Origin: Gammaproteobacteria bacterium Ga0074134
GTDB lineage: Bacteria; Pseudomonadota; Gammaproteobacteria; Ga0077554; Ga007554
Assembly: GCA_001464965.1 (NCBI GenBank)
Contig: LNEJ01000025.1
Coordinates: forward strand, 1-64,000
Reading direction: 5' to 3'
DNA length: 64,000 nucleotides
How positions within the stretch are numbered: the stretch's first letter is position 1; the number at the start of each line of letters is the position of its first letter. Shown in pieces: positions 1,068 to 15,520 of this stretch. The notes under the pieces are model-generated. The model was given only the letters and a program-made list of their open reading frames with translations. It was not told where the DNA came from and did no database searches. The position numbers and the translations under genes are program-made.

Positions 1068-1180
1068 ATTTGTGTCGCGCTCACAAACTACACGGTCAAA
1101 ATGAATATTTTTTATTAATTTCATAATGTTATTATTAAGTGCGCGCCTACCAGAGCGGCTCCTGATTTCTTTATATAAAA

Positions 1181-1224
1181 AAGTTACCTTAAGTTACCAA
1201 TGTTATGTATATAATACATAACAT
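1181..1224 (+). promoter_or_regulatory. Promoter with -10 inside a 25-bp palindrome, plus direct repeats
   Basis: Bases 1200-1224 form a perfect palindrome with 11-bp arms (ATGTTATGTAT / ATACATAACAT) around ATA. Its centre contains a consensus -10, TATAAT (1210-1215). Just upstream, AAGTTACC occurs twice (1181-1188 and 1191-1198) where a -35 or activator site would lie; no good TTGACA is present. A repressor dimer bound here would block the promoter of the AAA ATPase that starts at 1252. The sequence features are directly visible; the regulation is inferred. Confidence 0.6.
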
Positions 1225-1251
1225 CAATAAATCTTAATAAGCCCACTATAA

Positions 1252-2454
1252 ATGGATCCTTTACACAACCCTTTTTCTCCCGGTGCGGGCACGCCTCCCC
1301 CAGAGCTTGCTGGCCGTGATGACATTCTTAAGCAAGCATTAATGGCTTTAGCCCGAATCAAAAAAGGGAGGGCTGAAAAAAGCGTTTTACTGATAGGACT
1401 TCGTGGTGTTGGCAAGACCGTCCTTCTTCACAAAATTTCTGAAATGGCTGAAGAGCAGGGCTACAAGGCGGTAATGATTGAAGCTCACGAGAATAAGACA
1501 CTTCCTGCTTTACTGCTCCCATATTTGCGAAAAGTGCTTTTTTCTCTCGATACGGGTCAAATGGTTAGCACAAAAGTAAAGCGCGGCTTACGTGTTTTGA
1601 AAAGTTTTCTTGGCGGCCTTAGAGTCAAAATAGATGAGGTTGAATTTGGCTTAGATATTGATGCCGAAAGGGGGGCTGCCGATAGCGGAGATTTAGAGGC
1701 CGACCTTGCCGAAGTATTTATTGCTTTGGGTGAAGCGGCGCAGGATCGCAATACAGCGGTTGCCATCATTATCGATGAACTTCAATATTTGAGTGAAGAG
1801 GAACTTAGCTCTTTGATTATGGCTGTTCACAAAGTGTCGCAAAAGTCATTGCCGTTAGTAGTTATTGGCGCGGGATTGCCTCAGTTAGTAGGAAAGGCCG
1901 GGCGTTCAAAGTCTTATGCGGAGCGCCTTTTTGATTACCCGGTGGTTGGGCCGCTGAAAAAAGAAGATGCAAAAAAAGCCCTACAAGAGCCTGTACTTAA
2001 TGAGGGCGCGTCCTTTACCAATGATGCTCTTGATGAAATTGCCCGGGTGACTGAAGGCTATCCATATTTCCTCCAGGAATGGGGTTATCAGGCCTGGAAC
2101 ATTGCGGAAAAATCCCCTATAGAGCTCGATATTGTTAAGAAGGCAACAGAAGCATCTATTGCACGTTTAGACCAAAGTTTTTTCCGCGTGCGGCTAGATC
2201 GTTTAACGCCACGAGAAAAAGACTATTTGAGAGCCCTTGCCGAGCTCGGTTCGGACCCACAAAGATCCGGTGACATTGCTGAAAAACTAGGGGTTGAAGT
2301 TAACAGAGTTGCGCCGTTGCGAAATGGACTCATCAAAAAAGGCATGATTTACAGTCCCGCACATGGCGATACCGCTTTCACTGTACCTCTGTTCGAGGCG
2401 TTCATGAAGCGCACCATGCCTGACCCTCCGTCACCAAGAAACAAAAAATCCTAG
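1252..2454 (+). CDS. Orphan AAA-type ATPase with C-terminal winged-helix-like region
   Basis: Stand-alone P-loop ATPase of about 400 residues. Walker A is GLRGVGKT (49-56); Walker B is IIIDELQYL near residue 175. The last third (about 320-390) looks like a winged helix, with the stretch SGDIAEKLGVEVNRVAPLR. The layout resembles the AAA_16/Orc1-Cdc6-like proteins often labelled only ATP-binding protein. The DNA is visibly more AT-rich than its neighbours, the gene has no partner, and the ribosome site before the ATG is poor (CCCACTATAA). Together these suggest horizontal acquisition. A role in defence or mobile-element biology is possible but not shown. Fold assignment is confident; function is unknown. 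Confidence 0.8.
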   Translation: MDPLHNPFSPGAGTPPPELAGRDDILKQALMALARIKKGRAEKSVLLIGLRGVGKTVLLHKISEMAEEQGYKAVMIEAHENKTLPALLLPYLRKVLFSLDTGQMVSTKVKRGLRVLKSFLGGLRVKIDEVEFGLDIDAERGAADSGDLEADLAEVFIALGEAAQDRNTAVAIIIDELQYLSEEELSSLIMAVHKVSQKSLPLVVIGAGLPQLVGKAGRSKSYAERLFDYPVVGPLKKEDAKKALQEPVLNEGASFTNDALDEIARVTEGYPYFLQEWGYQAWNIAEKSPIELDIVKKATEASIARLDQSFFRVRLDRLTPREKDYLRALAELGSDPQRSGDIAEKLGVEVNRVAPLRNGLIKKGMIYSPAHGDTAFTVPLFEAFMKRTMPDPPSPRNKKS

Positions 2455-2564
2455 CGGCCTGCCTATCTTGAGCGCTCCCGCCCCTGCATCCACCACCATG
2501 CTCGGCGTGAATTTACATAAAAAGCTTGACACTCTGTGCGGCTTTTTTTCAAAACACGCATCCC

Positions 2565-3364: not shown

Positions 3365-3396
3365 CTCACCCCAGCAAAACTGGGTATTGCCTCAAC

Positions 3397-3421
3397 GTAG
3401 GGTGCGCCATGCGCACCCTAC
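3397..3421. repeat. GTAGGGTGCG palindromic repeat, short copy
   Basis: Perfect hairpin GTAGGGTGCGC-CAT-GCGCACCCTAC, 33 bp after a stop codon. Related longer copies occur at 15061, 16689 and 18904. It may act as a transcription terminator or mRNA-stabilising stem, but it is not followed by a T-run. Confidence 0.8.
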
Positions 3422-3515
3422 ATTTATATAACACCATTCATGCCCCCCTTTTTTATGCCTCCCCCTTTGGTTATGCTGTGGGTGATTTTCAACTAAACCA
3501 CCAGGTAAATCTCCT

Positions 3516-15060: not shown

Positions 15061-15107
15061 AGGGTGCGTCCCACGCACCAATGATTGTGGTGCGTGGGAC
15101 GCACCCT
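15061..15107. repeat. GTAGGGTGCG palindromic repeat, long copy
   Basis: Perfect 20-bp arms (AGGGTGCGTCCCACGCACCA and its complement) around ATGATTG. Same family as 3397, 16689 and 18904. Confidence 0.9.
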
Positions 15108-15367: not shown

Positions 15368-15520
15368 AAGGAAGCTCTGAATAATTCCATCCTGGAATTC
15401 TCAGAGCACGAAAAGCATAGTGTGATTTTTACTTTTCTGCATTTTTCAATCACTTGACATGATTGCAAAATGCCGACACATCCGTGTACCGAGGAACCTC
15501 TGATTAAATCAGAGGTTCCT
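15368..15520. repeat. MITE-like element, family G, copy 1
   Basis: 153-bp element starting AAGGAAGCTCTGAATAA and ending in a perfect 29-bp palindrome (AGGAACCTCTGATT-A-AATCAGAGGTTCCT, 15492-15520). The two ends are imperfect inverted repeats of each other. An internal hairpin AATTCCA-TCC-TGGAATT follows the left end. Other copies: 25385-25512 (right end decayed) and 62664-62752 (opposite orientation, shorter). Confidence 0.85.

Follow-up and report, generated by a model that had tools for sequence, protein, structure and literature searches.

A lone AAA+ ATPase gene present across many bacterial phyla carries a phased array of 10-bp units at its start, which its own winged helix probably reads

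Immediately 5' of the start codon of an ATPase gene in the window, the whole 64,000-nucleotide stretch analysed here (contig LNEJ01000025.1 of Gammaproteobacteria bacterium Ga0074134), lies an array of 10-bp units in which three direct units face three inverted ones. We favor the reading, at a probability of roughly 70%, that this is an operator-like array bound by the gene's own ATPase, likely for autorepression. The ATPase gene is a lone gene, patchily distributed across many bacterial phyla. A perfect palindrome within the array is peculiar to the window copy, and the conserved feature is the larger array of 10-bp units.

Under a class-B array model, the left arm in the window (1182..1211, + strand) consists of three direct units, AGTTACCTTA (1182-1191), AGTTACCAAT (1192-1201) and GTTATGTATA (1202-1211), and the right arm (1213..1242, - strand) of three inverted units that read AATACATAAC, ATCAATAAAT and CTTAATAAGC in + strand spelling. 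The 10-bp register suggests a possible, weak fourth unit at either outer end, TATATAAAAA on the left (1172..1181, + strand) and CCACTATAAA on the right (1243..1252, - strand), the latter touching the start codon; TATAAATGG-type ends, which may be compared with this outer right unit, are present in several homologues. The window array scored 15.8 under the full class-B model and 12.7 when cross-validated, versus 3.8 under the class-A model. A pattern built on the three left units matched the window's own genome exactly only at 1183-1206, and a reverse-strand match with 2 mismatches at 1218-1241 begins 12 bp beyond it. Allowing up to 2 mismatches yielded 12 matches in all across this genome compared to 43 for a reversed control pattern, and the pattern search found only one such array there.

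The sequence-only reading had described a pair of short repeats, a palindrome with 11-bp arms and a TATAAT here, and the sequence and a repeat finder place all of them where it put them. The repeat AAGTTACC occurs at 1181-1188 and 1191-1198, nearly all of both copies falling within the left arm; the inverted repeat ATGTTATGTAT-ATA-ATACATAACAT spans 1200-1224 (no strand) with perfect 11-bp arms at 1200-1210 and 1214-1224; and TATAAT, a possible -10 box within the array, lies at 1210-1215 on the + strand. The ATA centre is not symmetric, which makes the repeat a palindrome with a 3-nt centre. When 1061-1252 was dinucleotide-shuffled at full length 2000 times, an inverted repeat as large appeared in 2 of the shuffles, and the 25-mer at 1200-1224 occurs once in its 2.9-Mb genome when up to 3 mismatches are allowed on both strands. 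The promoter scan found no acceptable -35 box 16-18 bp upstream of TATAAT, and TATAAT is absent from the scan's list. The earlier proposal treated the palindrome as the operator and named its lack in homologues as grounds for giving the idea up; none of the other compared homologues has perfect inverted-repeat arms longer than 8 bp, so that by its own rule the palindrome alone is ruled out as a conserved operator. What the homologues carry is a 10-bp-phased inverted array, of which the window palindrome is the middle. The span first noted, 1181-1224, thus holds part of the feature, but the full feature runs from about 1172/1182 to 1242/1252. The description of the ATPase gene as AT-rich fits weakly (47.0% GC compared to 54.7% for the window); the array is strongly AT-rich (23% GC). 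Elsewhere in the window, a palindrome GTAGGGTGCGCCATGCGCACCCTAC occupies 3391-3425 (inverted repeat at 3397), and because short near-identical matches to it recur at several places in genomes G002, G003, G004 and G005, this palindrome is probably a REP-like repeat. The window has additional perfect inverted repeats, each arm at least 11 bp long, at 15070, 15492-15495 and 21815.

Upstream regions from 98 distinct loci (of 101 found) exhibited an exact 10-bp periodicity, with z of 20.7 at 10 bp and 19.2 at 20 bp, and no comparable periodicity was seen downstream. Setting the threshold at the 95% level of dinucleotide shuffles (8.1 in cross-validation), we found that 85 of the 98 loci exceeded it in 4-fold cross-validation, the window among them at 12.7, compared to 2 of 98 when the AT-richest other stretches of the same loci were scored as a control. 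The 13 loci below threshold were L020, L024, L025, L026, L029, L037, L049, L056, L077, L097, L102, L103 and L114. With the full model, 86 of 98 upstream flanks and 0 of 96 downstream flanks rose above the shuffle level. Arrays also exceeded the threshold at 18 of 24 loci of at least 45% identity that lay outside the model fit, with failures at L139, L167, L171, L176, L180 and L181.

Two array classes fit these loci, a larger class A and a class B to which the window belongs. Class-A units are of the form (G/T)TTATAC with an inner span of 24 bp in 46 of 49 fitted loci, and the class-A consensus comprises three ATTTATAcct-like units, a short core and three inverted GgTATAAaT-like units. Class-B units lie near GTTTATC/GTTATC, and their span is 20-22 bp in 43 of 44 fitted loci. 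Array type follows the gene, as genome G035 shows: its class-A copy, L004, and its class-B copy, L011, each come with an array of the matching class. The 10-bp architecture is the same in hosts from many phyla. Directly upstream of the phased array, L004 also contains a tandem run of the 11-bp unit TTATATCTATT.

The gene itself (1252..2454, + strand) encodes a lone 400-aa ATPase in which Pfam and AlphaFold2 place an AAA_16/ATPase_2 domain and a C-terminal winged helix. Pfam AAA_16 (PF13191) scored 59.8 bits against a cut-off of 32.6, AAA_22 scored 39.4 bits against 27, and ATPase_2 (PF01637) passed at the borderline (33.4 bits against 33.2). TIGR02928 (orc1/cdc6) scored 35.2 bits, below its cut-off of 181.3, and the predicted structure has the orc1/cdc6-type layout of an AAA+ domain followed by a winged helix. 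In alignment A3 (81 rows), V53 is the sole residue of the Walker A motif GLRGVGKT (residues 49-56, 1396..1419, + strand) that is not strictly invariant, and D175 and E176 of the Walker B motif IIIDE (residues 172-176, 1765..1779, + strand) are invariant. The AlphaFold2 model, built from 81 sequences with a pLDDT of 91.7, predicts an AAA+ core with a lid, and a winged helix at roughly residues 320-388, so the winged-helix-like C-terminus proposed earlier is now predicted with high confidence. By DSSP on this model, the winged helix corresponds to 2209..2415 (+ strand) with a recognition helix at residues 350-362 and a wing at about residues 365-376, helix and wing names being our own assignments. 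Residue 371, a His in the window (codon 2362..2364, + strand), is predicted to sit in the loop just before strand 373-376, which forms part of the wing. The nearest solved proteins in a profile search were ORC4 chains (E=8.6e-7). A structure search returned 2qen first (Z 23.9, rmsd 4.6, 318 aligned, 20% identity) and 2fna second (Z 22.2, rmsd 4.5, 324 aligned, 14% identity), followed by 1w5t (Z 20.2) and then by Orc1/Cdc6, STAND-type proteins and TnsC; DNA-bound Orc1/Cdc6 structures were among the matches (2qby, Z 18.9; 2v1u, Z 17.0).

Our main reason for proposing the ATPase as the reader of the array is that residue 371 and the first base of the unit (base 1) change together among class-A homologues. 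The share of class-A units with G at base 1 followed residue 371 (p=6e-11, 42 A3 rows), which came first of 199 columns in this test. The additional loci L159 and L161 broke the G-only rule because they had C rather than G at base 1, and we therefore regrouped base 1 as G/C versus A/T. In the original class-A rows, the G/C share at base 1 was 0.85 with Tyr371 versus 0.23 with His371 (F-test p=9.6e-12, compared to 1.1e-4 for the next of 199 columns). Eleven of 12 rows outside the residue fit behaved as predicted when Phe was counted with Tyr, the exception being L160, although two of these 12 rows had prompted the regrouping and some had trained the array model, though not the residue test. Phylogenetic contrasts across 54 class-A rows gave residue 371 a t of -8.44 (619 tests), with column 356, in the recognition helix, as runner-up (t -4.06). 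The starred branches comprise only 3 independent pairs, of which on average 2.4 agree, 0 oppose and 0.6 show no difference. On this evidence, the reader of the array is very probably the ATPase itself. Class B, to which the window belongs, yielded no clear coupling of a base with a winged-helix residue, and the claim of self-reading for class B consequently rests on homology.

A second link, between residue 353 and base 4 (p=6.2e-5 in the fit), was rejected after it failed on loci outside the fit: L004, L159 and L161 have Ile although C is rare or missing at base 4, L181 and L182 combine Leu with C there, and the independent changes are too few. Array class, as defined by spacing, is associated more strongly with residues 211, 196 and 85 of the AAA+ core than with residue 374 of the wing, and the residues sharing mutual information with array class did not cluster in the winged helix. 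We speculate that this link of spacing class to the AAA+ core may reflect subunit packing.

The position of the array relative to the gene bears on what binding would do. Relative to the start codon, the third right unit has its right edge between -11 and +50 nt in class A and between -8 and +22 nt in class B, and Shine-Dalgarno-like words occur at 12 of 49 class-A loci and 0 of 37 class-B loci. Of the 86 array loci, 83 have an upstream neighbour, which runs in the same direction as the ATPase gene in 60; in 20 of these 60, that ORF ends no more than 25 bp from the array, too close for a separate promoter to fit between them outside coding DNA. This close spacing would place the promoter in or at the array or in the coding end of the upstream gene, so that a bound protein would block it; with the array lying over the promoter and start region, autorepression is the best reading and is favored over activation. 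The bound protein could instead activate, or could use the array for another purpose.

In the mechanism we propose, the operator-like array would comprise six 10-bp sites, or perhaps eight, with three direct units facing three inverted ones at its core, and the ATPase encoded just downstream would bind it via its C-terminal winged helix. Because the units follow each other at intervals of one helical turn, the bound subunits would line up along the same side of the DNA as two rows that face each other, and binding should therefore be cooperative. Nucleotide dependence of binding is probable, the ATPase being an AAA+ protein. Binding would most likely turn off the gene's own transcription, and a lone transferred gene would then arrive with its own switch. 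We infer the physical binding, the cooperativity, the repression and any role for ATP. Autorepression by a winged-helix ATPase, which the sequence-only reading had raised as possible, draws indirect support from the predicted winged helix and from the class-A covariation of residue 371 with base 1.

That reading had also suggested a lone cargo gene, a suggestion supported by an empty site, the absence of a partner and a phylum-crossing tree. In the same-genus genome G002, the GDSL gene and the downstream ORF are adjacent with 47 bp between them, a matching empty site from which approximately 1087..2550 of the window (no strand) is absent; neither a duplication nor a terminal repeat could be clearly recognised for this insertion. 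Counting its own genome each time, homologues occurred in 9 of 56 relatives (E≤0.001, some weak or partial), 9 of 369 genomes of the class and 10 of 398 genomes of the phylum sample (the latter two at a strict E-value), and they were also found on 118 plasmid records and in 38 viral-contig loci. At least 585 relatives came from scanning species genomes, and a tree of the best 80 of these at least 585 mixes phyla (31 label changes, compared to a shuffled mean of 35.5 and a minimum possible of 19), with 100% support, for example, for groupings of Bdellovibrionota with Elusimicrobiota and of Omnitrophota with Elusimicrobiota. Many tree members are metagenome bins, in which stray contigs could add false mixing; named isolates and complete plasmids are also among the relatives. 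No cluster among 604 neighbouring ORFs occurred at more than 6 of 98 loci, that is, no constant partner was found. The nearest neighbours, scanned descriptively for 149 of 176 nearest ORFs, are a mixture of haem-biosynthesis, translation-linked, restriction-modification, pAgo and BREX-type genes, and some upstream ORF ends, read from the upstream sequences, look like type I restriction subunits. The array as a transposon end is ruled out by the 0 of 96 downstream copies together with the lack of a recurrent partner.

Two individual loci have distinctive features. In the sister genome, at L134 (G002:C12), an insert of about 88 bp (approximately 1159-1246) with ends AGTGTTTAATTGC...GCAATTAAACACTAG is placed near the 3' end of the GDSL gene and looks like a small MITE-type insert. 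The neighbours of L024 (Vibrio sp. HDW18) are annotated as DUF3709, DUF3024 and trypco2, an association that we take to suggest a superintegron cassette setting for that copy.

A tentative reading, compatible with autorepression, is that the lone gene may serve in defence or superinfection exclusion, its array silencing the ATPase until an invader perturbs it. Such a role would suit a spread that crosses phyla, the presence of the gene on plasmids and in viral contigs (with a CI-like repressor beside L172 and a Sie-like gene beside L176), neighbours that in some cases match restriction-modification, pAgo, PDC-S02 or BREX/Druantia-type models, and the site after traG on two related Sphingomonad plasmids, which holds either the ATPase gene or an mqsRA toxin-antitoxin pair. 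However, many neighbours are housekeeping genes, the protein has no effector domain, and its PADLOC match, to mad8 of the MADS defence system, is weak (28.9 bits, E=1.9e-7), with no partner set that recurs. The two related conjugative plasmids (L157 and L158) each carry traG and a small ORF followed by different genes, which are mqsRA and AbiE-type genes on one and the ATPase and an AbiEii-type gene on the other.

A broader proposal, which we consider rather doubtful, is that the gene is a minimal one-gene mobile unit, an Orc/MNS-like AAA+ ATPase with its own 3+3 phased loading array that moves between phyla although it brings no transposase. The array would then be an off-switch and also the site at which the ATPase assembles and senses DNA state (copy number, replication or invasion). 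We judge it unlikely that the array is foremost an assembly or nucleation site at which the ATPase loads for its main DNA work, as a replication or partition initiator or a TnsC/MuB-like protein would, with any effect on transcription secondary. Structural similarity to Orc1/Cdc6-type proteins (Z up to 20.2), TnsC (16.6) and MuB (14.6) is consistent with loading, two facing rows that together make up six phased sites would accommodate an oligomer, and spacing class tracks AAA+ core residues. Yet neither a transposase nor a replication partner is seen repeatedly among the neighbours (the largest cluster reaches 6 of 98 loci), and the array is found only at the gene's own start, never downstream, and once in its own genome.

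Many hosts silence AT-rich transferred DNA, and at 23% GC the array could be bound by a host factor, such as a global AT-binding or silencing protein, rather than by the ATPase. We consider this very unlikely, since hosts from many phyla share the 10-bp architecture, the two gene copies within G035 each keep the array class of their own, and the residue-base covariation lies in the ATPase. Least probable is that the inverted array forms an RNA or cruciform hairpin in the leader, a reading mostly rejected because same-rank and cross-rank identity are equal for inner and middle units (0.63 and 0.63), the 10-bp direct repeats inside each arm are not needed for a hairpin and base 1 follows a protein residue, despite the dyad symmetry and a pair-match of 0.459 for the outermost units versus 0.25-0.27 cross-rank (four variable bases; between-locus control 0.377).

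Across phyla, a lone gene with no annotation beyond 'ATP-binding protein' is accompanied by DNA sites that are precisely arranged and still evolving. The covariation of wing residue 371 with base 1 may offer a ready-made recognition code that can be tested by single residue and base changes. An unnamed, widespread ATPase would gain a first molecular activity to assay, and the role of such lone ATPases would become directly testable.

In the literature covered, which was mostly outside subscription journals, we recognised no description of an ATPase gene with such an array, and the five passages retrieved from PMC7159879 by term search did not describe one. The combination of an AAA+ domain with a C-terminal winged helix is likewise found in archaeal Orc1/Cdc6 (2qby, 2v1u) and eukaryotic ORC4. 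Binding sites beside their own gene are typical of archaeal initiators. Unlike Orc1/Cdc6, the window ATPase is bacterial, patchy and encoded by a single gene, with no origin function indicated. The best structural matches are archaeal ATPase_2 (PF01637) ATPases (2qen and 2fna), for which we take MNS to be the label, but identity is just 20% and 14%, and we know of no self-recognition array for MNS-type ATPases. TnsC, IstB and MuB share the AAA+ fold (TnsC, Z 16.6) and a mobile-DNA setting; unlike TnsC/IstB-type systems, with their linked transposase and ends on both sides, the ATPase gene has no recurrent transposase partner and 0 of 96 downstream arrays. Self-operators with phased, inverted sites are also a feature of lone regulators under autorepression and of partition ATPases that have operator arrays. 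Unlike those regulators, the likely binder here is an Orc/MNS-like ATPase, its 10-bp unit would be read by a wing, and the gene forms a one-gene insert over many phyla.
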